A stretch of 45,931 bases of DNA from Coriobacteriia bacterium (GCA_023252055.1 JAHEXP010000009.1:1-45931), one strand, 5' to 3'. Counted from the stretch's first letter, positions 9,553 through 34,362 are shown. Numbers and translations are program-made. The notes: generated from the letters alone by a model not told the origin.

Positions 9553-9637
9553 TCCGCCATTTCGGGCCGCCGTCGGTTCCTTCGACGCTGTCGACGGGCA
9601 TGACATCGGGTGACGTTCCGATCGGTGGGAGGTGCGC

Positions 9638-10873
9638 GTGCAGTTCGGGCCGTGGGCGACAGCCCTGATCGCGAGTGTCGCGGGCGGGGCCGCCGTGTGC
9701 GCGGCTCTTGTCGTGCGGCGCCGGTGGATCCCGCTCTGCTTCGCGGTGGGGACGCTCGCGGCGGTGACGGACACCCTCGCATGCGCACTGATCTGGGGGG
9801 CCGCGCACCGTTTCGACGGTCTCATAGCAGCCGTCGCGCTGTCGATGGGCGCCGCTGCGGGCGGGTTCGCACTCTACGCATCCATTCTCGGCTCACGGCC
9901 CGAGCGGCGCGGCCCCGTCTTCGACGGAGCGGTTGCGCCGGCCTCTCCGGGCACTCACGTCATCCTCCTCGCAGACGCCGAACCTGAGAGCTACGACCCG
10001 GCTGCGGTCACGGCGGGACTTGGGCGGTTCGGCGCCAACGACCTCGACCTTCCTCCCGAAGTGGCGCGTCCACTGATCTACGCGTCCGAGCGGTCGCGCT
10101 ACCACCGCATCGGGACGAGCCCCGCCCGCGGTGCTGTCCGTGGGATCGCAGCCACACTCGAGTCGCGACTCGCGGGGTTGGAGGATGCGACCGCCATCAC
10201 GGTCTCCGCCGCGTTCTGCACGGGAGGCCCGTCGCTGGCGCAGGAGGTCTCACGAAGCGTTGCGGGTGGCTGCCGCAGACTTGTCGTCGCTCCCCTGTCA
10301 GCGGCGTGGTCCCCGGCGTTCGAGCAAGCGCTCCAAGAGGTGCCGACACCGGCTCTCGCCGCAGCGGGGGTCGCTGTCGAGACGGCCGTCCCGCTGTGGG
10401 CGTCCGAGCATCTGAGCACGATGATCGCCCAGCGGATCGTGTCCGAGCTCGGGGGCGACCGCTCGAGCGACGGCGTGGTCCTCATTTCCGAAGGCGACCC
10501 CTGGGAACAGGAGCGCTCCCAGCAGGAGTACCGGGAGCAGATGACGTTCCTCATCGAGCGCGTGAGGTCGGAGCTGGTCCGTGCAGGAGTGGCCGCCGGT
10601 CGCATCAAGCGCGCGTGGTTGTGGCTGGAGGAGCCGGACATCGCCGAGGCGGTCCGCCACGCGACGGCGGTCGGTGCACGCACGCTCGTCATCGTCCCGG
10701 TCACCTATCCGACGGAGACGCTCGCGACACTCATAGACGTGCGCTACGCAGCCGAGCGGGCTGCTGCAGACACGGGTGCGGCCGTCACGGTCATCGGCGC
10801 TTGGGGAGACGATCCTGCCGTCGTCGAGTCGCTCACGGATGCGGTCCGCGATGCGGTGGGCCGTTTCGTCTAA
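9638..10873 (+). CDS. Membrane-anchored ferrochelatase-like protein, catalytic His not found
   Basis: 411 aa. About three hydrophobic helices occupy residues 7-85, an addition absent from ordinary HemH/CpfC. The soluble part matches the chelatase fold in order: GTHVILL (strand 1), YHRIGTSPARGAV (compare YxxIGGxSPL), RRLVVAPLSAAWS (compare the LPLYPQYS strand), EGDPWEQE (compare GDPYxxQ) and VPVTYPTETLATLIDVRYAAE (compare the ETLxELDIEY segment). The motif carrying the metal-inserting His in true ferrochelatases (like FTAHSLP) appears shortened to VLISEGDPW, with no His. It may be an inactive relative, a regulator, or an enzyme with another metal. Start chosen at the GTG at 9638, 5 nt after GGGAGG; a GTG at 9632 overlaps that site. 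Confidence 0.7.
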   Translation: MQFGPWATALIASVAGGAAVCAALVVRRRWIPLCFAVGTLAAVTDTLACALIWGAAHRFDGLIAAVALSMGAAAGGFALYASILGSRPERRGPVFDGAVAPASPGTHVILLADAEPESYDPAAVTAGLGRFGANDLDLPPEVARPLIYASERSRYHRIGTSPARGAVRGIAATLESRLAGLEDATAITVSAAFCTGGPSLAQEVSRSVAGGCRRLVVAPLSAAWSPAFEQALQEVPTPALAAAGVAVETAVPLWASEHLSTMIAQRIVSELGGDRSSDGVVLISEGDPWEQERSQQEYREQMTFLIERVRSELVRAGVAAGRIKRAWLWLEEPDIAEAVRHATAVGARTLVIVPVTYPTETLATLIDVRYAAERAAADTGAAVTVIGAWGDDPAVVESLTDAVRDAVGRFV

Positions 10874-10909: not shown

Positions 10910-11623
10910 CTACGCGCGGCACCGGGCGCGGTTGAGCGCCTGCTGCCGCCGGATCGCGGGGTATCGGTATGCGTAGCGGAGAGCGACCGAGAGACCACCC
11001 CTCGCGGCGCGAGCGCACGTCTCCAGCTCCTCGATAGAGCGGCGCACGTCCTCAGCGTTCTCACCACGGAAGAGCGTGTAGCCGTTGCCGATCGCGCGAA
11101 GTACATGCGCATCGCTGCCGCCCGTTGCCGCGACACCCTGGCCGGCGAGGAACGCTTTCGCCGCGAGGCGGTTGGCGCGGATGAGATACGGCGACGAGTT
11201 GTAGACCTCCATCGCGTGGAACGCCACATCCCCGATGCGGTCGCCAAGGCTCTTGAGGCCGAAGGGCCCGAACGCCTTGTTCGCGAAAGGATGCGCGATC
11301 ACGGCGATGCCGCCCTGTGCGGAGATGCGGGCGATCGTTTCGGCGGCAGACAGCCCGGGCGGCACGTCCTCGGTGAGGAACAGTCCAAGGATGTGGCCCC
11401 ATTTCGACGTGATCTCCGAGCCGATGACGACATCGAGGCCGGGGAAGGCGCGCGCTGCCTCACGTGCACGAAGCGCACCTTCGATGGTGTTGTGATCGGT
11501 GATCGCGATGACCTTCAGATCGGTCCGCGTCGCCGCATACTCGACGATCTCCTCGGGAGTGGCGAGACCGTCGCTCTCGGTCGAGTGTATGTGCAGATCG
11601 GCCTTGCTCCACGTTTCCGTCAC
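10910..11623 (-). CDS. PHP-domain metal-dependent phosphoesterase
   Basis: 237 aa. Metal ligands are in the usual PHP order: DLHIHSTESDG near residue 9, ITDHNTIEGA near 41, a Glu/His pair in IGSEITSKWGH, IAHPFA in the middle and GGSDAH near 167. The family holds trinuclear metal and includes nucleoside 3',5'-bisphosphatases and RNase AM (TrpH/YciV); this protein is shorter. The GTG start follows GGGAGG at 5-6 nt. The 117-bp gap before it contains a sigma-54-like promoter, so the gene may answer to the sigma-54 system at 3.7-8 kb. Converges with the ferrochelatase-like gene, 36 bp apart. Confidence 0.88.
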   Translation of the reverse strand: MTETWSKADLHIHSTESDGLATPEEIVEYAATRTDLKVIAITDHNTIEGALRAREAARAFPGLDVVIGSEITSKWGHILGLFLTEDVPPGLSAAETIARISAQGGIAVIAHPFANKAFGPFGLKSLGDRIGDVAFHAMEVYNSSPYLIRANRLAAKAFLAGQGVAATGGSDAHVLRAIGNGYTLFRGENAEDVRRSIEELETCARAARGGLSVALRYAYRYPAIRRQQALNRARCRA

Positions 11624-11740: not shown

Positions 11741-12919
11741 TCAGCGCGTCATGGTGGGGTACAGCTTCACACCCTCCGAGCGCGCGAGGTAAGGCTCGAG
11801 ACGTGCCGCAGCCTCGTCGGGGACCGCCCCGTCCTGCAGGGCCCGCGAAAGCTGGTAGGACGACAGGCTCGAGAACGCATCCCACATCCCAAGGGAGCGG
11901 ACCTCTGACTCGAAGGCCACACGTCGCGGGTCCTTCATGTCCGGGAGCGACACGCACGGATACCGGTACACCTTGATCGACCCTCCCGTGCCGAAGAGCC
12001 GCTCCGTCCCGTCTTCTGCGGCGCGTGCGGCTATCGCCTCCTTCAACTCGTCCTGGCGGGCCTTGAGCGCCGACAGCTCCTCGGAGACCTTCAGGTACTC
12101 GTCCACTAGAACGACGCCCCCCTCGAGTGCGCGCTGCTCGCCGGGCATCGCCTCGGTAGCGTAGAGGTGGCTCCACGCAGGACACATCGCCTTGTAGTCG
12201 CACCAATCGCACAGGGACGAGGTTCGCGCCGGGAACGCCGCTTGGGCCTCGATGCGCCGCACGGCATCGAGGACCTGGATACGCAGTGCTTCAAGCTGCT
12301 CTGTACTGCGGATCGAGCGTACCTCGGCGTCGAACGCGAGGTAGTGCCACACGAGCTCGATCCGCACGGCCTCCGGATGCATCTCGCGCACCGCCAAGGC
12401 GTACAGGGCGAGCTGCCTGTCGGCGTCCGCCTTCGCCTGCGTCATGAGGGTCGCACCGGTCTTGTAGTCGTGGATCTCCCAGACCCCGTCGGGACGTTTC
12501 GCGATGCGGTCGACGTAGCCGACCAGCCCGTGGTCGTCATCGAGTCGAAGCGTGATCCGCGCCTCGAGGCCGATCGTGATGTCCTGATCGAAAGGAGCGT
12601 AGCGCGCGTGATAGTCGCGCACCGCCTTCTCCCCGATCGCGCGGTAGTCTTGCGAGGTCCGGCCGGCGCGCACCACGCGCACGTCGTCCGTCCACTCGGC
12701 GTCCCACGCGGCCCGGTATGCGTCGACGGTCTCAGCGGCGGTGGGCACTTTGCATGCGCGAACCTCCCCGTACAGCCATTCGAGCGCCTCGTGGACCCGG
12801 TTCCCCATGAACGCCTCGATGCCCGCCGGCCCCCTCGGGACCTTGAGCAGGTAGCAGAACTCGTACTTCTTGGGACAGGTCTCGAACGATTCGATGCGTG
12901 AGTGTGAGAACGTGGACAC
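11741..12919 (-). CDS. PD-(D/E)XK nuclease with Fe-S cluster cysteines (RecB/Cas4/AddB-type)
   Basis: 392 aa from the GTG at 12919 (GGAGG 6 nt upstream). N-terminal SRIESFETCPKKYEF gives C15; the distal cysteines C237, C240 and C246 (CDWCDYKAMC) complete a 4Fe-4S set as in AddB and Cas4. The nuclease core has D137 in GYVDRIA, then EIHDYKTG (D151, K153), and the RecB-type motif RQLALYALA. A C-terminal helical extension of about 140 residues includes a coiled-coil stretch (KVSEELSALKARQDELKEAI). There is no helicase domain, no CRISPR array and no addA/addB partner here, so it belongs to the stand-alone exonuclease group (PF12705-like). Role probably in DNA repair; inferred. Confidence 0.85.
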   Translation of the reverse strand: MSTFSHSRIESFETCPKKYEFCYLLKVPRGPAGIEAFMGNRVHEALEWLYGEVRACKVPTAAETVDAYRAAWDAEWTDDVRVVRAGRTSQDYRAIGEKAVRDYHARYAPFDQDITIGLEARITLRLDDDHGLVGYVDRIAKRPDGVWEIHDYKTGATLMTQAKADADRQLALYALAVREMHPEAVRIELVWHYLAFDAEVRSIRSTEQLEALRIQVLDAVRRIEAQAAFPARTSSLCDWCDYKAMCPAWSHLYATEAMPGEQRALEGGVVLVDEYLKVSEELSALKARQDELKEAIAARAAEDGTERLFGTGGSIKVYRYPCVSLPDMKDPRRVAFESEVRSLGMWDAFSSLSSYQLSRALQDGAVPDEAAARLEPYLARSEGVKLYPTMTR

Positions 12920-13020
12920 AGAAGGCCTCCATCCGCTTTGGACGGGTCCATCGTGCCACTCGGGTCTGACACGCATCCCGCCCGGACCCCGACCGGATCC
13001 CGAACCGCGCCGTAACGACG

Positions 13021-14184
13021 CTAGACGTTCGTGCGCGCCCACTCCCGCAGCCGTTCCACGCCCTCACGGAGCCGGTCCACGGAAGACGCGTACGTGAAGC
13101 GCAGGAACCCTTCGCCGCCGGGGCCGAAGTCGATGCCCGGCGCCGCCGCCACTCCCGCCTCCTCGAGCAGCCGGTAGGTCAGCGCGAGCGAGTCGCTCCC
13201 CCACGACCGGGCGTCCGCGAACGCATAGAACGCGGCTGTCGGCTCCACCTCGATCCCGAGCCCGAGGCCGCGGAGGGCGGGCACCAGGAACTGTCGACGC
13301 TGGTCGTACTCGGCGCGCATGCGCTCGACGTCCGGACCGGCCTTAAGGAGCGCGGTCACGCCCGCCACCTGCACGAAGTGGTTCGCGCACAGGAAGAAGT
13401 TCTGCTGGATGACCTCTGCGGGCCGTACGAACGCCCGTGGAGCCACGAGGTAGCCGAGCCGCCACCCCGTCATCGAGTACAGCTTCGAGAAGCCGTTGAG
13501 CACGAACGCGCGGTCGGTGTACTCGAGGATCGTGTGGTCGGTTCCGGTGAAGTCCAGGCCGTGGTAGATCTCGTCGCTGGCGATGTAGAGGCCGTGACGC
13601 TCCGCGACGTCCGCGAGCGCGCGCAGGTCCTCCGGCGGCAGCACGGTGCCTGTGGGATTGCACGGCGAGTTGATCATGATGCAGCGGGTCCGCGGCGTGA
13701 TCGCCGCCTCGACCTCGTCGATACGCATGCGGAACCCGTCGCTCGACCGCGCGGGAACGCGCACCGGCACGCCGCCGAGGAACGCGATGTAGTTCGGATA
13801 CGCCGGGTAGCAGGGGTCCGCGATGATGACCTCGTCCCCCGGATCGAGCAGCGACCCGAACAGCAGCAGCATCGCCGGCGACGTTCCTTGGGTGACCACG
13901 ATGTCCCGGGCGTCCACGGAAACGCCGTACTTCGATGAGAAACGTGCGGAAACGGCGTCGCGAAGGTCCGGCAGTCCCTGGGACTGCGTGTATCCCGTGT
14001 CCCCGCCCTCCATCGCGGCTTCCGCAGCGCGGGTGATGACGTCAGGCGTCGCGAAGTCGGGGTCGCCGACGTCCATGCGCACGATGTCGCGACCGCCGGA
14101 TTCGAGCTCCTTGGCGCGGGCGACGACGTCCATGACCACGAAGGGGCGGACGGCGCTGGCTCGAGCAGACACGTGGTCGGGCAT
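13021..14184 (-). CDS. Class I/II pyridoxal-phosphate aminotransferase
   Basis: 387 aa, full length for the aspartate aminotransferase (fold type I) superfamily. The PLP lysine is K234 in GFSKLYSMTGWRLGY; SPCNPTG (173-179) and ASDEIYHGL (D204) line the cofactor, and FLRFTYA near the end holds the carboxylate-binding Arg. The ATG follows GAAGGAG at 4 nt. It is 30 bp downstream of the B12-binding radical SAM gene, the last member of that operon. It could serve amino acid metabolism generally or make an amino substituent on the product of the operon; substrate unknown. Confidence 0.92.
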   Translation of the reverse strand: MPDHVSARASAVRPFVVMDVVARAKELESGGRDIVRMDVGDPDFATPDVITRAAEAAMEGGDTGYTQSQGLPDLRDAVSARFSSKYGVSVDARDIVVTQGTSPAMLLLFGSLLDPGDEVIIADPCYPAYPNYIAFLGGVPVRVPARSSDGFRMRIDEVEAAITPRTRCIMINSPCNPTGTVLPPEDLRALADVAERHGLYIASDEIYHGLDFTGTDHTILEYTDRAFVLNGFSKLYSMTGWRLGYLVAPRAFVRPAEVIQQNFFLCANHFVQVAGVTALLKAGPDVERMRAEYDQRRQFLVPALRGLGLGIEVEPTAAFYAFADARSWGSDSLALTYRLLEEAGVAAAPGIDFGPGGEGFLRFTYASSVDRLREGVERLREWARTNV

Positions 14185-14214
14185 GGCTCTCCTTCGGTGG
14201 TTCGTAAGCCGGTG

Positions 14215-15480
14215 CTACACCCGGGCCCGATAGATCGACTGCAGAGACGACGCCATGACCTCGGCGCGTCGGAGGTCACGGAACGACACGTCCGGCGTCG
14301 CGATGACCTCGTGCGGTGGCTCCCGGTCGAACTCGAGTCCGAGTTCCAACGCACGCTCCCACAGCCCCGTTCCCGGCAGCACATGCAGAGTGGATGACTG
14401 CACCTTGCCCGGGTCCAGGTCGAAGCAGAACCGCAGTCCCGCAAGGAAGTCGTATGCGCTGTCGCCCGGGAGCCCGACGATGAGGTCGCATTCGCACGAG
14501 ATGCCGTGCGCCCGCAATGCGCGCACTCCGGCAGCGAACTTCATGGCATCGAACGGGCGATCACATGCAGCGAGCGCGGCGGCGCCGATCGTTTGCGGGC
14601 CGGTCTCCACGCTGGCGACGCCGGCCTCACGCAACAGGGCCGCGGCCTCGTCGTCCACGCGCTCGATGTCGACCTCGATCGTGTGCAGGCGCAGCCCGCG
14701 CGCCACGTGCGGCGCCATCCAATCAGCGAACTTGCGCAGGCGGCCGTCCGTGAGATTGAACACCGGGTCTATGAACGAGAAGCTCTTCACACCCGGAGCC
14801 GTCGCGACCGCCTCGATCTCGGCCGCCACACGGGCATCGCTGAAGGACCGGATCTTGCCGTAGCCCTTGCCTTCGAAGCAGTACGCGCACCGGTGCGGAC
14901 AGCCCCGGTAGGTCTCCAGATAGGCCCCGCCGTCGAGCGGCTGCAGCAGCCCGGTCAGGTACGGCGACGGCAACGAGTCCAGGTCGGCCACGAGCGCGCG
15001 ATCGGGAGTCGAGACGATCTCGTCCCCCCGGCGGAGCGCGAGCCCGTCGACCCTCCATGCCTTCCCGCCTCGGGCGAGCTCGGCGAGCAGTCCTGCGAAG
15101 GTGACCTCACCCTCCCCGCGAACTACCGCCGAGACCTCGGGGTGGGCGGCGAGCACGTCTTCGGCCGCGGGACCGACTTCGGGCCCGCCGAGCACGATGG
15201 CACACTCCGGGCGCACGGATCCGACGATGCGGCAGACCTCGTATACGGCACGCGCGTTCCAGCAGGTGACGGAGATGCCGAGAACGTCGGGCTCAAGTCC
15301 CAGGACGCGCCAGGCGGCCCACCAGGGGTCCACCGACGTGTCAAGATCGAGCGTCTCGAATGCGCACCGGCCCGCAAGGGCGCTGTCGGCCTCCGCGTAG
15401 GCGCGCAGGTAGCCGAGCGCCAACGAACGGTAGCCCGGGGAGTTCAGCCCGAGAAGCACGGTGCGCATCGGCTGGGCCAT
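14215..15480 (-). CDS. B12-binding-domain radical SAM protein
   Basis: 421 aa. Residues 1-160 form a Rossmann-like cobalamin-binding domain (VLGISVTCWN, IVLGGPEVG, VVRGEGEVTF), without the DxHxxG motif, as is common for this class. The radical SAM core has the CX3CX2C motif CPHRCAYC (C194, C198, C201), later SFSFIDPVFN and CECDLIVGLPGD. Such enzymes do methylations, cyclisations and rearrangements, often on lipids, tetrapyrroles or natural products. The ATG abuts the upstream stop (TAGATG), with AGGAGG at 8 nt. Its position between a radical-SAM-like protein and an aminotransferase suggests a shared biosynthetic path; the product is unknown. Confidence 0.93.
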   Translation of the reverse strand: MAQPMRTVLLGLNSPGYRSLALGYLRAYAEADSALAGRCAFETLDLDTSVDPWWAAWRVLGLEPDVLGISVTCWNARAVYEVCRIVGSVRPECAIVLGGPEVGPAAEDVLAAHPEVSAVVRGEGEVTFAGLLAELARGGKAWRVDGLALRRGDEIVSTPDRALVADLDSLPSPYLTGLLQPLDGGAYLETYRGCPHRCAYCFEGKGYGKIRSFSDARVAAEIEAVATAPGVKSFSFIDPVFNLTDGRLRKFADWMAPHVARGLRLHTIEVDIERVDDEAAALLREAGVASVETGPQTIGAAALAACDRPFDAMKFAAGVRALRAHGISCECDLIVGLPGDSAYDFLAGLRFCFDLDPGKVQSSTLHVLPGTGLWERALELGLEFDREPPHEVIATPDVSFRDLRRAEVMASSLQSIYRARV

Positions 15481-16359
15481 CTAGCACACCTCCTGAGCGC
15501 GGGCGCGCGCGATCTGCGGTGCCAGCTTCGCGGCGAACGGCGGTGGCGCGAGCAGCGCCAACTGGTCCGCCGACGCCCCGACAGGGGCCCCACCGCACAC
15601 GCCGTCGAGAGGGCAGAGCGTGCAGACCGGGGGCTTCGAGCCGTCGCGGCCTCGGACAGCGTCGGCGAGGTGCATGTCGTAGCCCGCAAGCATGCAGAAC
15701 GGCACGCCCCCGACCTCGACCCACACGCCGTTCACGACGCCGGTGTCGCAGGCCGCGACGATCCACGGCACCGCCGCGGCAAGGTCGATGCCGCCATCTG
15801 TCACAGACATCTCGACCCGGTCGGCGCCCGCCTCAACGGCCGCACCCACCGCGGACGGCAGGTCGCGCAGGTTGTGCCGGCACACCGGCACGGCGACGGT
15901 GATGCTCACCGGCAGCTGCGCAGCGTCGGCGGTGGCCCGGTACGCGGCGACGCCCTCGCGGGTGCTGTCGAAGATCCCGGGCATGCCGGCCAAGGCATCG
16001 TGCACGCCCTCAGTGCCCGCGAGGAACGTCACGCGGATGTGGCGAACCCCGGCGCTGAGCGCGCCGTGCGCGTTCTGAGCGGACCGCAGGGCGACTGCGT
16101 CGGTGTCGATGGCCAGGCGCCGGCACCCCGCCTCCATGACCCCGGCGACGATGCGTGGCAGCTCCTGATGCGTGAAGGGCTCCGCGCCCGTCAGGCGGAT
16201 GTTGGGGCCCGTGCCCCGGCTCCAGCCTTTGCAGGCCGCCCCCGCCTCCTCCACGACTTCCGCACCCGAGCGGAACGCCGCACGCTCCGGCGAACCCGCG
16301 CACCGTCCACACTGCACCTGAGGACCGTCTCCCAGCGAAATGTCCACGAACTCGATCAC
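15481..16359 (-). CDS. Radical-SAM-like protein with incomplete cluster motif
   Basis: 292 aa. The stretch IRLTGAEPFTHQELPRI is the SAM-contacting GGEP-type motif of radical SAM enzymes, and later barrel-like strands follow (HIRVTFLAG, PVSITVAVPV, RVEMSVTDG). The N-terminal cluster motif is not standard: the sequence is VQCGRC (C17, C20), with Pro where the first Cys of CX3CX2C should be, and a further Cys near residue 43. The C-terminus has PPVCTLCPLDGVC, resembling an auxiliary SPASM/Twitch-type cluster. It may use a rearranged cluster or act as a partner of the adjoining B12-binding enzyme. The GTG start abuts the glycosyltransferase stop (TAGGTG), with GGGAGG at 8 nt; its stop abuts the next ATG. 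Confidence 0.72.
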   Translation of the reverse strand: MIEFVDISLGDGPQVQCGRCAGSPERAAFRSGAEVVEEAGAACKGWSRGTGPNIRLTGAEPFTHQELPRIVAGVMEAGCRRLAIDTDAVALRSAQNAHGALSAGVRHIRVTFLAGTEGVHDALAGMPGIFDSTREGVAAYRATADAAQLPVSITVAVPVCRHNLRDLPSAVGAAVEAGADRVEMSVTDGGIDLAAAVPWIVAACDTGVVNGVWVEVGGVPFCMLAGYDMHLADAVRGRDGSKPPVCTLCPLDGVCGGAPVGASADQLALLAPPPFAAKLAPQIARARAQEVC

Positions 16360-17505
16360 CTACAGCACCTCCCGGTAGAGCGCGGCGGTCCGGTCCAACA
16401 TCGTCTCCTCGCCGAACTCGGCGAGGGCACGCCGGCGCCCCGCATCGCCCATCTTCTTGCGCGTTCCAGGCTCACGGAGCAGGCGACCGATCGCCTCCGC
16501 GAGCGGCGCGGCCTTGCCCGCGGCGACCAGCACTCCGGTCTCGCCGTCGACGACCACCTCCGGCGTCCCGCCCACGGCGGTTCCCACCACGGCCAGCCCG
16601 GCCGCCATCGCCTCGATGGTCCCGAGCCCGAGGCCCTCGGCGATCGCGGGAGAAACGTAGAGGTCGAGCGCGCCCAAGAGGCCCGCCACATCGGTCTCGA
16701 AGCCGGGGAACACCATCCGGTCGCGCACCGGGGTCGCCCGTGCCTTGGTGCGGACGAACTCGAGAAGCGGGCCGTCCCCGGCGATGACGAGCCATGCATG
16801 GGGCTCCGCAGCGAGCACCCGCGCCGCCGCCTCGACGAGCACGTCGAGCGCCTTCTGCGGCGCGAACCGCGCCGCGAGGCCGAAAGCGAGCGCGTCATCG
16901 GGCACACCGTAGCGGCCCCGAGCGCCTGAGCGGTCGGAAGGGGCCAGGAATGGCGAGAGGTCGAGTCCGTTGTGGATCGTCGTGACCAACTCCGCGGGGA
17001 GCCCGATCGTGTCGGTCATCTCGGCGCGCAGAGCGTCCGAGACGGTCACGACGCGCGCGGTACGCCGCGCTAGACGACGCTCGAGCCAGATGTACAGCGC
17101 CCGCATCGCCCCGGATACGCCCCCGTAGAGCACCTGGTTGTGAACGGTGACGACGGTGGGCGTCCGTCGTGACACGAGTGTTGCGAGTCGCGCGATCAGG
17201 GCCGCCTTCGACCCGTGTGCGTGGATGATCGCCGGACGCCGCTCCCGGATGACCTCGGCCAGGGAGACCACGGCGAGCAGGTCTTTCAGAGGCCGCAGCG
17301 GTCCGACGATCGGAACGGGGTGGACCTGTATCCCCAGTTCCAGGGCGTCATGGACGAGTTCCGAATCCCCGGGGCATGCCAGTTCGCTCTCGAACCCGAG
17401 GGCACGCAGGCCCGTCGCAAGTTGAAGGACATGTGCGCGCATGCCACCGACAGCGGGCCTCACGACCTGAAGGACTCGCGTGCCCTGCCTCGGATCCGAC
17501 GCCAC
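16360..17505 (-). CDS. GT4-family glycosyltransferase
   Basis: 381 aa, a GT-B fold. The N-terminal domain has VLQVVRPAVGGMRAHV (acceptor-side glycine loop) and HAHGSKAA. The C-terminal domain has GLAARFAPQKALDVL and the nucleotide-sugar-binding ESEGxxxxxxEAMAxG-type motif as AEGLGLGTIEAMAAGLAVVG, followed by GGTPEVV. It would transfer a sugar from an NDP-sugar with retention. Start set at the GTG at 17505 after GGGAGG; an in-frame reading further back adds an unlike tail. It leads the four-gene run with two radical SAM proteins and an aminotransferase, so its acceptor may be the product of that run. Confidence 0.9.
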   Translation of the reverse strand: MASDPRQGTRVLQVVRPAVGGMRAHVLQLATGLRALGFESELACPGDSELVHDALELGIQVHPVPIVGPLRPLKDLLAVVSLAEVIRERRPAIIHAHGSKAALIARLATLVSRRTPTVVTVHNQVLYGGVSGAMRALYIWLERRLARRTARVVTVSDALRAEMTDTIGLPAELVTTIHNGLDLSPFLAPSDRSGARGRYGVPDDALAFGLAARFAPQKALDVLVEAAARVLAAEPHAWLVIAGDGPLLEFVRTKARATPVRDRMVFPGFETDVAGLLGALDLYVSPAIAEGLGLGTIEAMAAGLAVVGTAVGGTPEVVVDGETGVLVAAGKAAPLAEAIGRLLREPGTRKKMGDAGRRRALAEFGEETMLDRTAALYREVL

Positions 17506-24257: not shown

Positions 24258-24971
24258 ATGACCAAGGACCATACAGAGGGCCTGACGCGCCGGGAGTTCG
24301 TCGCCGGCTTGGGTGTCGGCGCGCTCGCGATGCTCGCCTCCGGGTGCGTCCCCCGGCCGCCGTTGGTCTCCTCGAACCCGTCGGGCTTCCCCACGAGCGA
24401 GCAACTCGCCAAGTCCGAGCTTCGCGTCTACAACGGCCAGAAGCTCGACTCGATCACGGCATCGCGCGAGAACTCCATCGAGGGACCCCAATACGTCGAC
24501 AAGAAGTCGTGGCGTCTGACCGTCGACGGGCTCGTGGATGCCGTCAAGACATACACGTTCGACGAGCTGATCGCCGCCTTCCCCGCCGACAAGCAGGTCC
24601 ATCGTCTCGATTGCGTCGAAGGGTGGAGCGAGACGCAATTGTGGGAGGGCGTCAGGGTCGCCGACGTCATCAAGGCCAGCGGCGTGAAGAGCGCCGCGAA
24701 GATGGTCATCCTGCACGGCCATGACGGCTACACCACCGAGTTCCCGGTGGGCTACTTCGACGAGTCGCATCTGCTCGTCTACAAGCTCAACGGCGTGGAT
24801 CTGTCCGCGCAGCGCGGCTACCCGCTGCGCCTCGGGGCGTGGAGCAAGTGGGGCTACAAGTGGATCCGCTGGGTCGAGAGGATCGAGCTGTCCGCGGACA
24901 CCACGTACCTGGGCTATTGGGAGAGCCGCGGCTACAGCGCGACAGGCGAGCGGTCACAGCCTTCGCTGTGA
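24258..24971 (+). CDS. Tat-exported molybdopterin oxidoreductase (sulfite oxidase/MsrP fold)
   Basis: 237 aa. The N-terminus has a twin-arginine signal (TRREFVAGLGVGALAM, R11-R12) and a lipobox ending at C30 (ASGC), so it is probably an exported lipoprotein that folds with its cofactor first. The oxidoreductase molybdopterin domain (PF00174) follows with the Mo-ligating Cys in HRLDCVEGWS (C119) and the typical LRLGAWSKWGYKWIRWVERI near the end. It is shorter than MsrP and lacks a visible heme-protein partner, MsrQ. Its substrate may be a sulfoxide, sulfite or other oxide. It pairs with moaB just upstream; its stop codon lies inside a long hairpin. Confidence 0.9.
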   Translation: MTKDHTEGLTRREFVAGLGVGALAMLASGCVPRPPLVSSNPSGFPTSEQLAKSELRVYNGQKLDSITASRENSIEGPQYVDKKSWRLTVDGLVDAVKTYTFDELIAAFPADKQVHRLDCVEGWSETQLWEGVRVADVIKASGVKSAAKMVILHGHDGYTTEFPVGYFDESHLLVYKLNGVDLSAQRGYPLRLGAWSKWGYKWIRWVERIELSADTTYLGYWESRGYSATGERSQPSL

Positions 24972-24981
24972 CCGCTCGCCT
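24944..24981. terminator. 17-bp perfect hairpin between convergent genes
   Basis: Arms AGGCGAGCGGTCACAGC (24944-24960) and its exact complement (24965-24981) enclose a 4-nt loop, CTTC. It contains the last codons and stop of the molybdoenzyme gene and is 37 bp from the stop of the opposing peptide-binding gene. No U-tract follows on either strand, so it may end transcription in both directions with help or protect 3' ends. Confidence 0.65.
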
Positions 24982-25017
24982 GGTCGTCCTCATTCGAGGG
25001 CTTTGAGCAGAGCGCGC

Positions 25018-26724
25018 CTACTCGACCCAGGCCTTCGCGAAGTCCGCGTAGCCCTGCGCGTCCCACGTGAAGCCATGGAGCCGCGCCGAACCCACGCGAT
25101 CGTGCTGGTAGAACATCAGCGGCACCACGGGGTTGTCGGCCCCGACCATCGCGCTGATCGACTGATATGCCGCGACCCGGGAGGCGATCCCGGTGTTCTT
25201 CCGCGCGGAGGTGAGAGCGGTATCGACCGCGGGGTTCTCGTACCACGACAGGTTGTCGTTGGAGTCCGAGCGGAAGAGCGCGTCGAGGAAGTTCTCTGCG
25301 GTCGGATAGTCGCCGATCCAGCCGAGCCGGCCGAGCTGGAAGTCGCTGTCGTAGAGCCACCCGAGGTATGTCGGGAAATCATCCGTGCGTGTGGTGACGG
25401 TCAGGCCGATCTCAGCGAGGTCCGATCGCACCATGTCCATGATCTGCTGGTGCCCGCCGTCGTTGTTGTACGACAACTGGATCGCCGGAAGCCCGGCTCC
25501 ACCCGGGAAACCGCCGTCGATCAGCGCCTGCTTCGCGGCTTCGAGATCGTAGCGGGAGTCGGCCCATCCGCCCTTGACGTAACCGGCGACCCCTGGCGGC
25601 AGCATGTTGTCGGCAGGCTGGCGGCGGCCCTCGAAGACCGAGTCGCAGATGGCCTGACGGTCGATCGCGAGGGAGATGGCCTTGCGGACGTACGGGTTCT
25701 CCATCGTGGGATCCAGGTTGTTGCACAACAGGTAGTAGATGGAGTTCTCCGCGCCGAGGAGCACCTGCTTCCCCGGGTCGACGGTGTAGCCGTTGTCCGA
25801 GACTCCGTAGGCGGCCTTTGCGGCGGCCATCTGCCCCCACGCGATCGGCGAGAAGTCGAGGTTGCCCGCGGTGAAGTCGGCGTAGGCCGTATCGGGATCC
25901 TCGTAGATCTTGAAGTCGACACGGGAGAGGTACGGCTTGGCTCCGTAGTAGTGCGGGTTGGGCTTCAGGCGGATGAGGCTGTAATGGCTCCAGGGCTTGT
26001 ACATCATGAACGGTCCGTTGCCGATGGGCATGTTGCCATAGGCCACGCGGCTGCTGTGATACTTCACGCGGCCCGTGACCAGCGACTTCGGGACGGGCGC
26101 GAGCGCGGGGTGCGAAACAACGTACGGGAAGTCCGCACACGCCTGGGTAAGCGTGACCCTGAATGTGTAGGCGCTCACGGCCTTCACCCCGGACAGGACC
26201 TTCGTCTTGCGAGCCATGAGCGACTTGTAGCCCTTAACGGACTTCAACAGGAAGCTCACATTCGACGGATCCGTCCGCTTGCTGCGTGTGTCTTTCGTGC
26301 GCGGGTCCACTATCCGTGTCCATGCGTACACGAAGTCCGCGGCCTTGACCGTCTGGCCGTTGGCGAACTGGTCCTTCTTGTTCAGCGTGAAGGTCCACAC
26401 GGTGGCGCCATGGCTCGACGACCACGACTTGGCCGCCGCGGGCATGACCACGGTCGAATCGAGCGGATCGACGCGCGTGAGACTGTCGAACAGCGCCTGG
26501 ACGACCTGGACGCCTTCAGACTCCTGGGCGTTGTAGGGGTCGATGTAGGCAGGCTCACCGAGGTAGAACGACATCGCTCCGCCACGTACGGGAAGTTCAA
26601 GGGCCGATGCGAGCGTGGGCCCGATCAGAGCTCCGAACAAGGCCGTGATGCATGCGATGGAGACGATTCGAGCGGCGGCCGATGCGATCCCCGGGCGCGA
26701 TGCGGCGCGATGACGAACGTCCAT
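25018..26724 (-). CDS. Peptide ABC transporter substrate-binding protein (orphan paralog, no lipobox)
   Basis: 568 aa, SBP family 5 (OppA/DppA). A basic N-terminus and a hydrophobic segment (IACITALFGALIGPTLASA) form a Sec signal, but no lipobox Cys follows it. The mature part starts VRGGAMSFYLGEPAYIDPYNAQESEG, nearly identical in layout to the lipoprotein at 34363-36066 (TMSFYIGDPAAIDPYNAQESEG), and the similarity continues throughout. The two are clearly paralogs. It has no permease of its own, so it may feed the oppBCDF operon 4 kb away or be released. The ATG follows GGGGGGAACTCAC. Divergent from the Asp-box protein gene. Confidence 0.92.
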   Translation of the reverse strand: MDVRHRAASRPGIASAAARIVSIACITALFGALIGPTLASALELPVRGGAMSFYLGEPAYIDPYNAQESEGVQVVQALFDSLTRVDPLDSTVVMPAAAKSWSSSHGATVWTFTLNKKDQFANGQTVKAADFVYAWTRIVDPRTKDTRSKRTDPSNVSFLLKSVKGYKSLMARKTKVLSGVKAVSAYTFRVTLTQACADFPYVVSHPALAPVPKSLVTGRVKYHSSRVAYGNMPIGNGPFMMYKPWSHYSLIRLKPNPHYYGAKPYLSRVDFKIYEDPDTAYADFTAGNLDFSPIAWGQMAAAKAAYGVSDNGYTVDPGKQVLLGAENSIYYLLCNNLDPTMENPYVRKAISLAIDRQAICDSVFEGRRQPADNMLPPGVAGYVKGGWADSRYDLEAAKQALIDGGFPGGAGLPAIQLSYNNDGGHQQIMDMVRSDLAEIGLTVTTRTDDFPTYLGWLYDSDFQLGRLGWIGDYPTAENFLDALFRSDSNDNLSWYENPAVDTALTSARKNTGIASRVAAYQSISAMVGADNPVVPLMFYQHDRVGSARLHGFTWDAQGYADFAKAWVE

Positions 26725-26916
26725 GTGAGTTCCCCCCGACTCCGGATGTTGAGTCGCATGCTACACCCGCGCCCACCGGGGGCACCGTGTCGCCTGCCAG
26801 CGCGAGCCGAGATGTTCTCGCGAAGCGGGTATATACTTCAGATTGCCCGCGCGTACGGGCACACCCCGCCGCCGGCGGACGGCGAGGCGCACCCACTCCC
26901 CCAGGAGGGTCGCGCC

Positions 26917-29835
26917 ATGAAGAGACTCCTCTCGTACCTCTCCCTCGTCGGCCTGCTCGTCATCGTGTTCGGTCCAACGGTCGGCGCGGCCGTCGACCCG
27001 CTCGTCCCGACCGTCTCTGCGGTGTCACCTGCTGCGGCGTTCAACGATGTCGACGTGCGCGTGACGATCACGGGAACGGACTTCGCCGCAGATGCTTCGA
27101 GCACGCCGACGGTGATGATCGGGGCCATCCCCCTCTCCGACGTCACGTGGGTGGACACCCAGACGCTGACCGCCAACGTGCCGTTCGGTGCCGAGCCGGG
27201 CACATACGCCCTTACGGTCACGAACCCCGGGGGCGGGATCGGCACGCTGGTGGACGCATTCACCGTGTCCGCCGGCATCGGGGAGTGGAACGTCGGCAAC
27301 CTCTTCGGCGCGCAGGTGCGTCAACTCCTGATGAAGCCGGGCGACCCCGACACGCTCTATGCGCTGGCGTACGACGTGGGGATGTTCCGCAGCACCGATG
27401 CCGGGGAGCACTGGACGTTCACGAACGCCAACGTCATCGGGAACGCGGACTTCGTGATCGACCCCTCGACGCCGGGACGCCTGTACTCCGTCATGAACGA
27501 AGGTCTTCGGCGCTCCGACGATGACGGGCAGACATGGCCGACCTTGCTCTACGACACCGGTCAGGACGTCACACCCCGGTCCGCCGAGGTGTTCGTCTCG
27601 CCGCACCACCCGAACGTACTCTTCCTCGGGTCCTACGTCCCCTACGGCAACGGCGTATACCACGGTGAGTACGCTATCAAAGGGCTTCTGAAGTCCGTCG
27701 ACGGCGGCACGCACTGGACTCATGTGGCGAGCATGGAAGGGACCGGCGTGCAGTCCGTTGCCTTCGACCCCTCTGATCCGACCGGCTCCCAGATGGTGCT
27801 GGCCACCTCGGATGCACGGGTATTCACCTCGACCGACACCGGTGCCACGTGGACCGAGGCGGCGAAGCCGTCAGCGCCGGCACTTGAGATGTACGGCTCG
27901 ATCTCCTACAACCCGCGCAAGCCCGGGGAGGTCTGGGTCACCACAAATGGATCACCCACCCATCTCTTCAGGAGCGACGACGCCGCGATCTCGGGCTGGA
28001 TCGAGGTGACGCCCCCGTACTTCAACGGCGGAACTCCCGTGTTCGTGAGTACGGACACGGTCTATGTCCCGATGTACCGCTCCGCAGACGACGGCACGAC
28101 GTGGGAGGAGTTCGGCCCGTCGCCATGGTGGGGCGGAGGCGCCGTCGCCGTGAGTCCCAACGACCCGCTGACCATCTACGCCGGGGACGCGACGGTCGGT
28201 GTCCAGAAGAGCACCGACGGCGGGCAAACGTGGGAAACCAAGAACCAAGGGCTGCAAGGCATGAACTGCCTTGAGATGAATGTCTCCTGCACGGATCCTC
28301 TCAGGGTGTACGCGAGCTTCTGGGGGTGGCCGGGGCTGCACCGGAGCGACGACGGCACCGCGAATTGGACCTACCTGCCCACCTCCTCCTTGCCGCCCGA
28401 TTTCGGCTACATCGGTGCGATCCGTGAGGATCCTTTCGATTCGGGTCGGATCTACGAGGGAGGCGGCACATTCGCTTTCAGCAGGGACAAGGGCGAGTCG
28501 TGGACCGACCTGGGGTGGACACTGTCGCCGGCGTTGCCCGACGCAACGGGCGGCTTTGAGACGATGGCTCCGGACCCGCACCACGCCGGCCATCTGGTCG
28601 CCGCCTTCGGGGCGGGCGACTATGGAAATGGCCAAGGGTGGATCTACCGAAGTATCGACGGGGGCGTCTCGTGGCAGGCCGCCACGATGTCGGAGGAGGC
28701 GTCACAGGCAAGGCAGTTCCTCTACGACCCTGAGACGACCGGCACGGTCTACATGACGACGATGGGCTCGGGTGTGTTCAAGAGCGCGGACGACGGGATG
28801 ACCTGGAACCGCGTGGGCCGCAGCTACCGCTTCCTCGACAACGCCAAGTCGATCACGATCGCCACGCACCCGAGCCACGTGGTGGTTGTCGGCGCCGACA
28901 ACTGCGATCGCTCCTACGATGGCGGCGCCACATGGGATCAAGTGGACGTTGCGGTGGGCGGCGACACCTATCTGTTCGTAGAGGGCGATTCGACGCGCCT
29001 GTACTCGGCGGGCTGGGAGGGTATGGGGTTCTCCAGCAACATGGGCGATTCCTGGACCCGAGCGGCGGGCCGACTTGGTCACGCGCACGTCACGTCGCTC
29101 GCGTTCGCCATCTCGAACGGGCGCACGATGCTGTATGCGGCGACCACTGGCGGAGAGGCTGCCGCCGCGAGCAACATGGCTGCGTCCGACACCCTCGCGA
29201 GCGTAGCGGTGTCCGAACAGGATGCGCTCGTGGGCGCGGGCATCTACCGGAAGGCCCAGGTACCCGCGAGCACCACGTTCCGCTCCACCGGCTCGCTGGA
29301 TGGATGGGTGCTGGAGTCACGGCACACGAGCAGCAGCGGCGGCTCGCTCAGTCGCACGTCCTCAACACTGAGGTTGGGCGACAGCGCGACGAAGCGGCAG
29401 TACCGGAGCGTACTCTCGTTCAGTACGTCGTCACTTCCCGATTCCGCGGTGATAACGGGAGTCGCCCTCCGGGTCCGGCGTAACGGCGTGACCGGTGGCG
29501 GGGACCCGATCGCGAAGTTCCACGGGCTCATGGTCGATGTCAAGAAGGGCTGCTTCGGCAGCATGGGGCTGAGCACCGCCGACTTCCGGACCTCCGCCAC
29601 CAGGGCGTACGGTCCGTACTCCCCCGCACTCGCTTCGGGCTGGTACGAGATCGACCTGACCGCTGCCAAGGCGTACGTGAACAAGACCTCGTCGTCCTCG
29701 GGCCGCACGCAGATACGCCTGCGCTTCAAGCTCGACGACAACGCCAACAACACCGCCAACTACGTGCGCCTCTACAGCGGGGACAGCAGCACGCCGTCCC
29801 GCCCGCAGCTCGTTGTGAGCTACTTCCTGCCGTGA
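26917..29835 (+). CDS. Large secreted Asp-box repeat protein with IPT and C-terminal wall-type domain
   Basis: 972 aa, AGGAGGG 7 nt before the ATG. A Sec signal (MKRLLSYLSLVGLLVIVFG...GAA) is followed by an IPT/TIG Ig-like domain (about 35-120). Then come about 12 Asp-box/BNR repeats of the form SxDxGxxW, among them STDAGEHW, SDDDGQTW, SVDGGTHW, STDTGATW, SADDGTTW, STDGGQTW, SRDKGESW, SIDGGVSW, SADDGMTW and SYDGGATW. This predicts a sortilin/VPS10-like beta-propeller. The last 190 residues form a beta-rich DNRLRE-like domain (YRSVLSFSTSSLPDSAVITG; QLVVSYFLP at the end). No LPXTG motif or anchor is seen. Probably an extracellular binding or carbohydrate-active protein; catalytic residues not identified. 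TATACT at 26832-26837 is a candidate -10 without a good -35. Confidence 0.88.
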   Translation: MKRLLSYLSLVGLLVIVFGPTVGAAVDPLVPTVSAVSPAAAFNDVDVRVTITGTDFAADASSTPTVMIGAIPLSDVTWVDTQTLTANVPFGAEPGTYALTVTNPGGGIGTLVDAFTVSAGIGEWNVGNLFGAQVRQLLMKPGDPDTLYALAYDVGMFRSTDAGEHWTFTNANVIGNADFVIDPSTPGRLYSVMNEGLRRSDDDGQTWPTLLYDTGQDVTPRSAEVFVSPHHPNVLFLGSYVPYGNGVYHGEYAIKGLLKSVDGGTHWTHVASMEGTGVQSVAFDPSDPTGSQMVLATSDARVFTSTDTGATWTEAAKPSAPALEMYGSISYNPRKPGEVWVTTNGSPTHLFRSDDAAISGWIEVTPPYFNGGTPVFVSTDTVYVPMYRSADDGTTWEEFGPSPWWGGGAVAVSPNDPLTIYAGDATVGVQKSTDGGQTWETKNQGLQGMNCLEMNVSCTDPLRVYASFWGWPGLHRSDDGTANWTYLPTSSLPPDFGYIGAIREDPFDSGRIYEGGGTFAFSRDKGESWTDLGWTLSPALPDATGGFETMAPDPHHAGHLVAAFGAGDYGNGQGWIYRSIDGGVSWQAATMSEEASQARQFLYDPETTGTVYMTTMGSGVFKSADDGMTWNRVGRSYRFLDNAKSITIATHPSHVVVVGADNCDRSYDGGATWDQVDVAVGGDTYLFVEGDSTRLYSAGWEGMGFSSNMGDSWTRAAGRLGHAHVTSLAFAISNGRTMLYAATTGGEAAAASNMAASDTLASVAVSEQDALVGAGIYRKAQVPASTTFRSTGSLDGWVLESRHTSSSGGSLSRTSSTLRLGDSATKRQYRSVLSFSTSSLPDSAVITGVALRVRRNGVTGGGDPIAKFHGLMVDVKKGCFGSMGLSTADFRTSATRAYGPYSPALASGWYEIDLTAAKAYVNKTSSSSGRTQIRLRFKLDDNANNTANYVRLYSGDSSTPSRPQLVVSYFLP

Positions 29836-30127: not shown

Positions 30128-31204
30128 CTACGCCTCGACCTCGCCGCTCGCCACCATCTCCTCGTAGGGAGAGCAGGGACCGTCTCCGATGACGGTCGTA
30201 CACGCCTTGTCCAGCGGGATCGGGTACGGCTTTGCGAAGTGGCAGGCTGCCCGATGGCCGGCCGCGACCTCTTTGAGTTCCGGGTCCTGCTCTGAGCAGA
30301 TCGGGAACTGCGCGATCGGGCAGCGGGTGTGGAACCGGCAGCCGCTGGGCGGGTCGATGGGGCTGGGCGGGTCGCCCGGAAGCAGGATGCGCTCCCTGCT
30401 GCGCTGGGCCGCCGGGTCCGCGAGCGGGACCGCCGAGAGCAGCGACTGCGTGTAGGGGTGCGACGGCGCGTCGTAGAGCGCGTGCCAGTCGGCGATCTCG
30501 ACGATCTTGCCGAGGTACATGACCGCAACGTAGTCCGACACATGCTGTACGACCGACAGGTCGTGCGCGATGAAGACGTACGTGAGGTCGAACTCGTCCT
30601 GCAGCCTGTCCAGCAGGTTCAGGACCTGCGCCTGGATCGACACGTCGAGGGCCGAGACCGGCTCGTCGCACAGGATCACCTTCGGCTGAAGTGCGAGCGC
30701 GCGCGCGATGCCGATGCGCTGGCGCTGGCCGCCGGAGAACTCGTGCGGGTAACGCGAGATGTGCTCGGGATTGAGCCCGACGATGTCGAGCAGCTCCTTG
30801 GCCTTCGCGATGCGCTCGCGCCGCGTGCCGATGTTGTGGATCGTGAGCGGCTCGGTGACGATCTCACCGATGGTGAAGCGCGGGTTCAGGCTCGCGTACG
30901 GGTCCTGGAAGATGACCTGCACGTCGCGCCGGTATGCCTTGAGGTCGCGACCGCGCATCTTGAGCACGTCGCGGCCGTCGAACTCGACAGAGCCCGATGT
31001 GGGCTCGGTGAGGCGGATGAGGCAACGGCCGGTGGTCGACTTGCCGCAGCCCGACTCCCCCACCAACCCGAGGGTCTGACCGTGCTCGACTTCGAAGCTC
31101 ACGCCGTCGACAGCCTTGACCTTCGAGCTCATGCGCGACGCGAGGACGCCCTGCTGCACCGGGAAGTACTTGACCAGATCGGTGACCTTCAAAAGCGGCG
31201 CCAT
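30128..31204 (-). CDS. oppF: Oligopeptide ABC transporter ATPase OppF/DppF
   Basis: 358 aa from the ATG at 31204 (GAGG upstream, 2 nt after the oppD stop). Walker [11 protein letters not shown]-loop [10 protein letters not shown], signature [14 protein letters not shown] and Walker [13 protein letters not shown] are intact. The C-terminal oligo_HPY extension has conserved cysteines ([16 protein letters not shown] and AACHF), the set known in this family to hold a 4Fe-4S cluster. It pairs with OppD to power peptide uptake. It is the last gene of the opp operon and ends about 100 bp before tRNA-Leu on the same strand. Confidence 0.94.
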
Positions 31205-31206
31205 CG

Positions 31207-32229
31207 TCACACCACCTCGCTCTGGACATCGAGCGAGCATCCGCGAGCGAACCAGGGCTCGCCCGAGAAGTGACATGCGCTCTTGTGCTCGCCTTGGATG
31301 TTGCGGAGAGCGGGCACCTCGGTCAGGCAGCGCTCGCGGGCGTACGGGCAACGGGGGTGGAACGAGCACCCGCTCGGGACGTCGATGAGGCTGGGCGGCT
31401 GGCCGTTGATCGGGCACAGCTCGCTCTTCTCGGTCATGCCGGCACGCGGGACGGAGTCCATGAGCCCCCACGTGTAGGGGTGCTGCGGCGCGCCGAATAC
31501 CTCGTCCAAGGTGCCGTACTCGACCGGCTTGCCCGCATACATGACGAGCACGCGATCGGCGATGTCGGCGATGACGCCCAGGTCGTGCGTGATCATGATG
31601 ATCGCCGCACCCGTGCGTGCCTGCACCTCCTGCATGAGCTCCAGGATCTGGGCCTGGATCGTGACGTCGAGCGCGGTGGTGGGCTCGTCGGCGATCAGGA
31701 TGTCCGGGTCGCACGCCAGCGCCATGGCGATCATGGCGCGCTGGCGCATGCCGCCGGAGAACTGGTGCGGGTAGTCGTCCACGCGCTTCTCCGGATGCGG
31801 GATGCCCACGAGGTGGAGCAGCTCGATCGCGCGCGCACGGGCCTCGGCCTTCGAGGCGCCCTTGTGAACGCGAACCGGCTCGGCGATCTGGCGCCCGATG
31901 CGGTAGACCGGGTTCAGCGAGGTCATCGGGTCCTGGAAGATCATTGAGATCTCGTTGCCGCGGATGGCGCGGAGCTCCTCGTCCTTCATGGTGATGAGCG
32001 AACGCCCCTTGAAGCGGACGTCGCCGCCCTCGACGCGGCCGGGAGGCATCGGGATGAGCCCCATGAGGGTCAGGGCTGTCACCGACTTGCCGGAACCGGA
32101 CTCGCCGACGACGCCGAGCGTCTCACCGCGGTCCAGCGTGTAGCTCACGCCGTCGACGGCTTTGACGACGCCGTCGCGTGTGTGGAAATGCATCTTCAGG
32201 TCGTCGACCTCGAGCAGATGGTCGGCCAT
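31207..32229 (-). CDS. oppD: Oligopeptide ABC transporter ATPase OppD/DppD
   Basis: 340 aa. Walker [12 protein letters not shown]-loop [10 protein letters not shown], signature [15 protein letters not shown], Walker [13 protein letters not shown] and the switch His in MITHDLGV are all present. The C-terminal oligo_HPY domain has the four-cysteine set ([15 protein letters not shown] and SACHF). AAGGA lies before the ATG, which is 1 nt after the oppC stop. Forms a heterodimer with OppF. Confidence 0.95.
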
Positions 32230-32230
32230 G

Positions 32231-33244
32231 TCAGTCCTTCAGTTTCACGTCGAGTGCATCGCGGACACCGTCTCCGAGGAGCGTGAACGCGAGTACCGTT
32301 GTCAGGATCGCCAGTCCGGGCCAGAGCACGATGCCGGGGTTGGACGTCAGATACGACTGTCCGTCACTGATCATGCGGCCCCAAGACACCGCGTTCGGTG
32401 CGCTCACCGGGTCCGGGATGATCCCGAGGCCCAGGAAGGACAGAGCGGCCTCGGTCAGGATCGCGCCACCGATGGACATCGTCGCGTACACGAGGATCGG
32501 CGCCACAGCGTTCGGCAGGATATGGCGGACGATGAGACGTCCGTCACTCGCGCCGAGCGCCCGGCCGGCGTCCACGTAGTCGTTCTCTTTGACCGACAGG
32601 ATCGAGCTGCGGAACACACGGGCGATCGAGGGCCACCCGAGCACGCCGATGGTGAGCACGACCGGCGCGATGCCGGTGCGGCTGGACTCCGGCAGCACGC
32701 TCAGCAGCAGGATCGCGAACAGTATGTAGGGGAACGCCAGGAACACGTCCGCTATTCGCATGATCACCGCATCGAGCCAGCCCGCATAGAAGCCGGAGAG
32801 CGCTCCGAGGAGCAGCCCGATCAGTACCGAGACGAGCACAGCGAGCGCGCCGACGGTCAGCGAGATGCGAGCGCCGTAGATGACACGGGCGAACATGTCA
32901 CGCCCGAGGTCATCGGTGCCCAGCGGGTGGGTCATCGATGGGCCCTGCAGACGCGTCGCCATGATCGTCGAGGAGTCGATGTGGTTGGGCGCGCCGAAGT
33001 TCTGCGGTACCCAAAGGTCGGCGGTGAGCGTCGCCAGGATCAGGAGCATGAGCCATGCGAGGGCGCCGAGAGCAAGCTTGTTGCGGCTCAGGCGGTACCA
33101 CGCGTCCCCGTAGAGCGTGCGTGCGCCGCGGGACTCCTTGCGGCGTTCGTCCTCATCGCCGGCTGGTCCGTGCGGGTGCACAGGGACGAGCTCCTCGATG
33201 ATCGCGCGATCGCTGACTTCTGTCGCCTTCTGGTCGTCAGTCAT
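32231..33244 (-). CDS. oppC: Peptide ABC transporter permease OppC/DppC
   Basis: 337 aa from the ATG at 33244; a soluble N-terminus of about 60 residues, one leader helix (LGALAWLMLLILATL), the periplasmic-type loop with HPLGTDDLGRDMFARVIYG, then five core helices with the EAA loop DAGRALGASDGRLIVRHILP that docks to the ATPases. That loop and the GTDDLGRD motif are diagnostic for OppC/DppC. Seven bp follow the oppB stop. Together with OppB it forms the membrane channel. Confidence 0.94.
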   Translation of the reverse strand: MTDDQKATEVSDRAIIEELVPVHPHGPAGDEDERRKESRGARTLYGDAWYRLSRNKLALGALAWLMLLILATLTADLWVPQNFGAPNHIDSSTIMATRLQGPSMTHPLGTDDLGRDMFARVIYGARISLTVGALAVLVSVLIGLLLGALSGFYAGWLDAVIMRIADVFLAFPYILFAILLLSVLPESSRTGIAPVVLTIGVLGWPSIARVFRSSILSVKENDYVDAGRALGASDGRLIVRHILPNAVAPILVYATMSIGGAILTEAALSFLGLGIIPDPVSAPNAVSWGRMISDGQSYLTSNPGIVLWPGLAILTTVLAFTLLGDGVRDALDVKLKD

Positions 33245-33251
33245 CGTGTTC

Positions 33252-34271: not shown

Positions 34272-34300
34272 GTGCCGCCTTCGTTCGCCTGACATCACGC

Positions 34301-34336
34301 CGGGTGGCAGGATACCCGAGGGCATCCTGCCACCCG
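34301..34336 (-). terminator. 13-bp hairpin between oppA-like gene and oppB
   Basis: CGGGTGGCAGGAT (34301-34313) and ATCCTGCCACCCG (34324-34336) pair exactly with a 10-nt loop. No U-tract follows. Position between a binding-protein gene and its permease fits a partial terminator or an mRNA-stabilising 3' end that sets the usual excess of binding protein. Confidence 0.6.
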
Positions 34337-34362
34337 TCTAGCGTGCGTGAAATGACCCTACG

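Follow-up and report, generated by a model that had tools for sequence, protein, structure and literature searches.

Cobalamin-dependent radical S-adenosylmethionine (SAM) C-methyltransferases of the CysS/TokK/KedN5 type (NCBIfam model NF033712) are proteins of 624–681 residues, in which a cobalamin domain is followed by a radical SAM domain with a CX3CX2C cluster motif. A Trp residue, Trp76 in TokK and Trp75 in CysS, sits beneath the cobalt (PMC12846815, PMC13331322), and in CysS the C-terminal domain forms part of the substrate channel through a helix and a gating loop (PMC12846815). Other B12 radical SAM enzymes, MgmA and Mmp10, act on a metalloenzyme; MgmA, similar in length to the protein described below, methylates a glutamine of methyl-coenzyme M reductase and is often encoded beside the operon of its target (PMC11796369). 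Here we describe a gene pair within a 45,931-nucleotide stretch of DNA from a Coriobacteriia bacterium (GCA_023252055.1 JAHEXP010000009.1:1-45931; hereafter the window), which was placed in the order Anaerosomatales from its named relatives. The pair encodes a 421-residue B12 radical SAM protein and, directly upstream, a 292-residue partner that resembles a radical SAM enzyme and has lost the first Cys of the cluster motif. We propose, with a probability of about 0.5, that the two constitute a two-protein B12 radical SAM C-methylase in which the pseudo-radical-SAM subunit presents the substrate, most likely a protein or peptide residue. To our knowledge such a system is undescribed, and a search of the open-access literature (subscription papers lay outside it) found no account of a B12 radical SAM enzyme with a pseudo-radical-SAM partner.

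Both domains of the 421-residue protein scored above the Pfam cut-offs (B12-binding PF02310, 45.5 bits; radical SAM PF04055, 58.5 bits), and the cluster motif C194-x3-C198-x2-C201 is intact, being invariant in 32 sequences and in 19 diverse sequences. The fold matched the C-methyltransferases across the whole query (TM-scores of 0.84–0.87 overall; CysS 9n1b, 0.86; TokK 7kdy, 0.85), and Trp74, conserved in at least 90% of sequences, aligned with the Trp beneath the cobalt in TokK and CysS. The end of the protein aligned with residue 433 of CysS, the first of its C-terminal domain (433–630); the substrate domain is thus absent, and the second subunit is obligate, in both of which respects the system differs from the longer enzymes. 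The KedN5 model gave 157.9 bits against a cut-off of 700. The MgmA model gave 60 bits, its cut-off being 360. MgmA is nonetheless a precedent for a two-domain B12 radical SAM enzyme that methylates a protein, and its structure, 9ccb, ranks as fold match 12. Mmp10 is of another architecture; we know of no need for a pseudo-radical-SAM partner in either enzyme. The 421-residue protein would accordingly be read as a cobalamin-dependent C-methyltransferase of the CysS/TokK type reduced to its cobalamin and radical SAM domains, in which one SAM would furnish methylcobalamin and a second the 5'-deoxyadenosyl radical.

The 292-residue partner scored 17.8 bits with PF04055, below the cut-off of 29.5, and a first-pass annotation of the window was for this reason right to call it a degenerate radical SAM protein beside a B12 radical SAM protein. 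Pro13 takes the place of the first Cys of CX3CX2C, while Cys17 and Cys20 are kept. Its predicted structure (AlphaFold, mean pLDDT confidence 93.1) is a radical SAM barrel, the best solved Foldseek match being BlsE 7vob (E 1e-9), and dN/dS values of 0.16–0.43 show that the gene is under purifying selection and is not decaying. Further inspection revealed that Cys160 and His162 are present together in 60 of 60 Coriobacteriia members, whereas among canonical members a Cys is found at the first position in 11 of 19 and a His at the second in none. Cys160 directly follows a predicted strand (152–159), at the end of the barrel where radical SAM enzymes hold the cluster and SAM, and hence Cys17, Cys20, Cys160 and His162 could form a metal site in the modelled fold; they would probably hold a metal or Fe-S centre whose ligand positions are all filled and that serves structure or electron delivery. 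A partner that still works as a radical SAM enzyme, with its cluster on Cys17, Cys20 and Cys160 and SAM at the fourth iron, would suit the intact fold, the GxE motif that is mostly kept, and the Cys already in place at position 160 in those 11 canonical members. This is nevertheless a very improbable reading, as the co-conserved His162 would occupy the fourth cluster site, the GGE motif has relaxed to G-x-E/D, and the characterised families known to us hold their cluster by three cysteines of one loop.

The closest families of the partner are HxsC/HxsC4 (canonical members scored as high as 108 bits with the HxsC4 model), PqqE and the BlsE type, from all of which the partner in the window differs in lacking the first Cys of the motif; the neighbourhood of the pair showed no genes for a His-Xaa-Ser peptide, PQQ or blasticidin. 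TIGR04347, a pseudo-SAM/SPASM protein of haloarchaea, is likewise radical-SAM-like and named for a lost motif, yet the partner reached only 25.5 bits against its cut-off of 525, and we know of no pairing of TIGR04347 with a B12 radical SAM enzyme.

Partners outside the Coriobacteriia, in Nitrospiria, Deltaproteobacteria and other Actinomycetota, mostly retain CX3CX2C in full, along with a tail rich in Cys, and these distant sequences lie above the PF04055 cut-off at 41–64 bits. The tail in the window carries four Cys residues (C222, C246, C249 and C255), which are kept in the window's family and lost in most of the order, where a short form of about 235 residues prevails. In a tree of the B12 protein the Coriobacteriia constitute one 64-row clade with a support of 100, in which the partner is degenerate wherever it could be read; the whole tree holds three losses, the other two being the single sequences L139 and L142, which have no Cys/His pair. 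The loss of the motif in Coriobacteriia is therefore shown to have a single origin. The partner would go back to a radical SAM enzyme that was active and carried a twitch/SPASM-like tail; in Coriobacteriia it has probably lost productive SAM binding and become an obligate subunit of structural function, to bind the substrate and present it.

The pairing itself is close to absolute. A broad profile of the B12 protein separated its own family (about 480–670 bits) from other B12 radical SAM proteins (at most 300 bits) in the samples searched, and 82 of the 86 unique family members have the partner directly upstream, the remaining four all starting at a contig end. The two genes overlap in 29 of the 35 order loci measured and lie no more than 14 bp apart in the other six, and this tight coupling argues for a stoichiometric complex. 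Most of the 69 genomes in our sample of the order hold a strong homologue of the 292-residue protein, some matches being merely weak ones to other radical SAM proteins. Outside the order, the B12 family was found in five genomes of a 396-genome Actinomycetota sample (where no other Coriobacteriia had it), in 10 of 200 genomes of a Nitrospiria-class sample and in 7 of 291 of a Deltaproteobacteria-class sample; further order-level searches in Deltaproteobacteria yielded no additional members. The pair is ancient and inseparable, and an entire order of underground bacteria retains it. Loci of the pair in Nitrospiria show a recurrent HAD phosphatase (Pfam) together with genes identified by eye as mnmG/rsmG, and two diverged Coriobacteriia pairs (L127 and L128) lie directly behind a DUF520 (YajQ-type) gene.

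In the window the pair is flanked by a glycosyltransferase gene upstream and an aminotransferase gene downstream. The first-pass annotation had described these four genes as an operon, and their close packing, their coordinates and their junctions (TAGGTG, TAGATG and then a 30-bp gap before the aminotransferase) were confirmed; its remark that the set matches no recognised pathway was also borne out. None of the NCBIfam models listed reached its cut-off for any of the four proteins. How far the four families stay together was assessed in 40 relative loci of the order, of which three were cut by contig ends on the relevant side and 37 were uncut. The partner, the B12 protein, the aminotransferase and a PHP hydrolase occur in the same order in 33 of the 37 uncut loci, and since the order of the last three of the four genes is kept in most of a bacterial order, their arrangement is not due to chance. 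The glycosyltransferase stands beside the pair in all six loci of the window's family (the window and five relatives) and in none of 35 others; the aminotransferase, strongly conserved at about 69–85%, accompanies the pair within the order only, and beyond it the pair alone remains of the four. The expected conservation of the neighbourhood is consequently real for the last three genes within the order, and for all four within the family, and does not extend further. Four relatives (L050, L051, L052 and L074) have the pair without the aminotransferase, and the genomes of L050 and L051 contain an additional copy of the pair that has it. The copies at L050, L051 and L052 are of the long form, with neighbours that by eye are NusA/IF-2 or NifX/Mrp-like genes; a short-form copy of the pair is additionally present in genomes G033 and G051.

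These observations establish a nested arrangement and not a single four-gene pathway: the glycosyltransferase and aminotransferase are encoded next to the enzyme and form no part of it, and as both are lost while the pair stays, sugar and amino transfer fall outside the conserved function. The annotation's suggestion of lipid or natural-product assembly is not supported on this account. A small pathway for an unusual lipid or a glycosylated natural product would find a basis in the close layout kept in six of six family loci and in the frequency of GT4 glycosyltransferases and aminotransferases in such clusters. The dropping out of the glycosyltransferase beyond the family and of the aminotransferase beyond the order led us to reject it as the principal explanation, and we consider it improbable, given further that the aminotransferase is aspartate-aminotransferase-like and that a fast-evolving specialised cluster would not be expected in nearly all of the 69 species of an order. 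Among open reading frames (ORFs) of at least 50 residues, the range searched, neither assembly enzymes nor a precursor-sized gene recurred beside the pair. What does recur within the order is an oligopeptide ABC transporter, the PHP hydrolase and a ferrochelatase-like protein; the transporter lies upstream of the pair in about two dozen relatives, in many of them directly adjoining, and in the window it is displaced to 30.1–36.1 kb. A ribosomally synthesized and post-translationally modified peptide was also considered as the product and was set aside, because no precursor-sized gene recurs in that size range and the transporter gene often adjoins the pair; at L054, L056, L060 and L062 the gene for the transporter ATPase adjoins the partner gene and leaves scant room for a precursor.

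Our proposal is that the partner stands in for the missing C-terminal domain of the B12 protein. Since the domain that shapes the substrate channel in CysS is absent here, we infer that the partner would supply that role; the substrate would most likely be a protein or peptide residue, which is credible because MgmA methylates methyl-coenzyme M reductase and is often encoded adjacent to it. Several observations weigh against the proposal. The models of BchE and HpnJ rank next behind KedN5 for several members of the B12 family, and B12 radical SAM enzymes also run non-methylating reactions, as do BchE and OxsB. A small molecule could be the substrate of the pair, the conservation of Cys160 and His162 could have causes other than metal binding, and the structure predictions are of single chains, from which a complex is something we infer. 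A specific version of these doubts would make the B12 protein a relative of BchE or HpnJ in function, with a small-molecule substrate, for example an amino acid or peptide imported by the Opp transporter and processed by the aminotransferase. The B12 protein of the window does match the BchE (102 bits) and HpnJ (82 bits) models, and the positions of the transporter upstream in about two dozen relatives and of the aminotransferase downstream would fit; we nonetheless judge it unlikely, in that the closest profile (KedN5, 158 bits) and the closest folds (CysS/TokK, TM-score 0.84–0.87) are those of C-methyltransferases, as is the Trp beneath the cobalt, and the pair outside the order has neither transporter nor aminotransferase.

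The gene context in Deltaproteobacteria points to a candidate substrate. Six of the seven pair loci there are linked to [NiFe]-hydrogenase or hyp genes, in two different layouts. At L137, L139, L190 and L191 Rnf-like genes are followed by a HyaD-type protease gene, with the pair immediately after it, and in three of these four loci the small and large subunits of a [NiFe] hydrogenase follow downstream. At L192 the order is hypC-hypD-pair, with hypF-hypB-hypA-hypE on the other strand, and at L193 hypA-hypB adjoin the pair. A protein of about 100 residues with no Pfam match is encoded between hypD and the pair at L192 (8313–8624), and one is found elsewhere on the contig of L193 (334–615). The pair may accordingly be a maturation or modification enzyme of [NiFe] hydrogenase, which alters the large subunit or helps to build the NiFe(CN)2CO cofactor; a parallel is available in Mmp10 and MgmA, both of which alter methyl-coenzyme M reductase. 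Within the Actinomycetota sample HypD was present in all nine genomes that have the pair, compared with 203 of 396 overall; in the order it was present in 66 of 69 genomes. On the other side, the loci of Coriobacteriia and Nitrospiria have no hydrogenase genes close to the pair, apart from one weak 29% match in L099; those other Coriobacteriia of the sample that have HypD are without the pair; HypD occurred in 7 of 10 pair-bearing Nitrospiria against 166 of 200 overall, these being incomplete metagenome-assembled genomes (MAGs); and hydrogenase maturation in E. coli proceeds without such a pair. The hydrogenase-linked loci fall in two clades of the tree and hence represent about two independent placements, so that the two layouts count as roughly two independent events. 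Hydrogenase as the sole or obligate substrate was not adopted in view of the HypD-bearing Coriobacteriia without the pair and the three of 10 pair-bearing, albeit incomplete, Nitrospiria MAGs without HypD. With HypD in all nine Actinomycetota genomes and in seven of the 10 Nitrospiria, we treat hydrogenase as a strong lead and not as a conclusion, and hold this role for the pair to be unlikely. The fuller scheme is less probable still: a B12 pair with a relocated ligand (the first Cys lost, Cys160/His162 fixed) whose pseudoenzyme is the obligate subunit presenting the substrate, and whose ancestral form with two active enzymes would serve, in Deltaproteobacteria, in [NiFe]-hydrogenase maturation, by way of a new post-translational modification of the hydrogenase or by making the anaerobic CO ligand. 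Where anaerobes obtain the CO for NiFe(CN)2CO is still an unanswered question (PMC12134894).

The window constitutes a single contig from a 75%-complete MAG of 1.44 Mb; the order Anaerosomatales has been described and now has cultured members (PMC9686372). The features are collected in Table 1. All four genes are co-directional, and the GC content by codon position is that of coding sequence in each (GC3 0.84–0.89). The glycosyltransferase was started at GTG 17505; an alternative GTG lies upstream at 17613, and the alignment with relatives begins only at residue 4 of the 17505 start. Solved relatives of the aminotransferase are 3h14, 2z61 and 1gc3.

Table 1. Positions of genes and motif codons in the window, with the evidence for each.
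Feature	Position	Strand	Evidence
GT4 glycosyltransferase, 381 aa	16360-17505	-	PF13439/PF00534, 1e-34 or better
Pseudo-radical-SAM partner (degenerate radical SAM, long form), 292 aa	15481-16359	-	PF04055 below cut-off; alignments; AlphaFold/Foldseek
Codons of Cys17-x2-Cys20, remnant cluster motif	16300-16311	-	Invariant in 38-sequence alignment
Codons of Cys160-x-His162, apparent replacement ligands	15874-15882	-	60/60 Coriobacteriia members
B12 radical SAM enzyme, 421 aa	14215-15480	-	PF02310 (8e-12) and PF04055 (1e-15)
Class I aminotransferase, aspartate-aminotransferase-like, 387 aa	13021-14184	-	PF00155, 5.8e-63
PD-(D/E)XK nuclease-like protein, encoded between the aminotransferase and PHP genes	11741-12940	-	PF12705, 2.5e-34
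PHP-domain hydrolase, downstream neighbour kept across the order	10910-11623	-	PF02811/PF13263
Opp-type ABC transporter: OppA-like substrate-binding protein, two permeases, two ATPases	30128-36096	-	PF00496, PF00528, PF00005/PF08352

The PD-(D/E)XK nuclease-like protein is stand-alone, has a weak Cas4 match and occupies this place in the window's family only. A Ferrochelatase/CbiX-like protein with a hydrophobic N-terminal part (9632–10873, plus strand) adjoins the PHP gene across the order. For the transporter, Opp models were the best in NCBIfam for the substrate-binding protein and the ATPases; a nickel transporter was considered and rejected, as a nickel-type model was best for the permease only and no nickel model reached its cut-off. 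Elsewhere in the window, a plus-strand ORF of 1704 residues (24721–29835) runs antisense to a minus-strand substrate-binding protein gene (25018–26724); GC by codon position identified the latter as the real gene in the overlap, and the plus-strand protein, with Sortilin-Vps10/BNR repeats and a TIG domain, probably starts near 26.7 kb.

The new elements are the obligate pairing of the two proteins, the absence of the substrate domain and the shift of a ligand; their chemistry probably belongs to a known kind. Linkage to hydrogenase genes in Deltaproteobacteria provides a concrete hypothesis for the substrate, in an area in which the source of CO in anaerobes is admittedly open (PMC12134894). 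If our proposal is true, the missing substrate domain of a B12 radical SAM enzyme would be supplied by a catalytically dead radical SAM protein, and the path from active enzyme to pseudoenzyme would be traceable, by way of one relocated metal ligand. Since the pair is near-universal in Anaerosomatales, it is probably central to the physiology of these bacteria.

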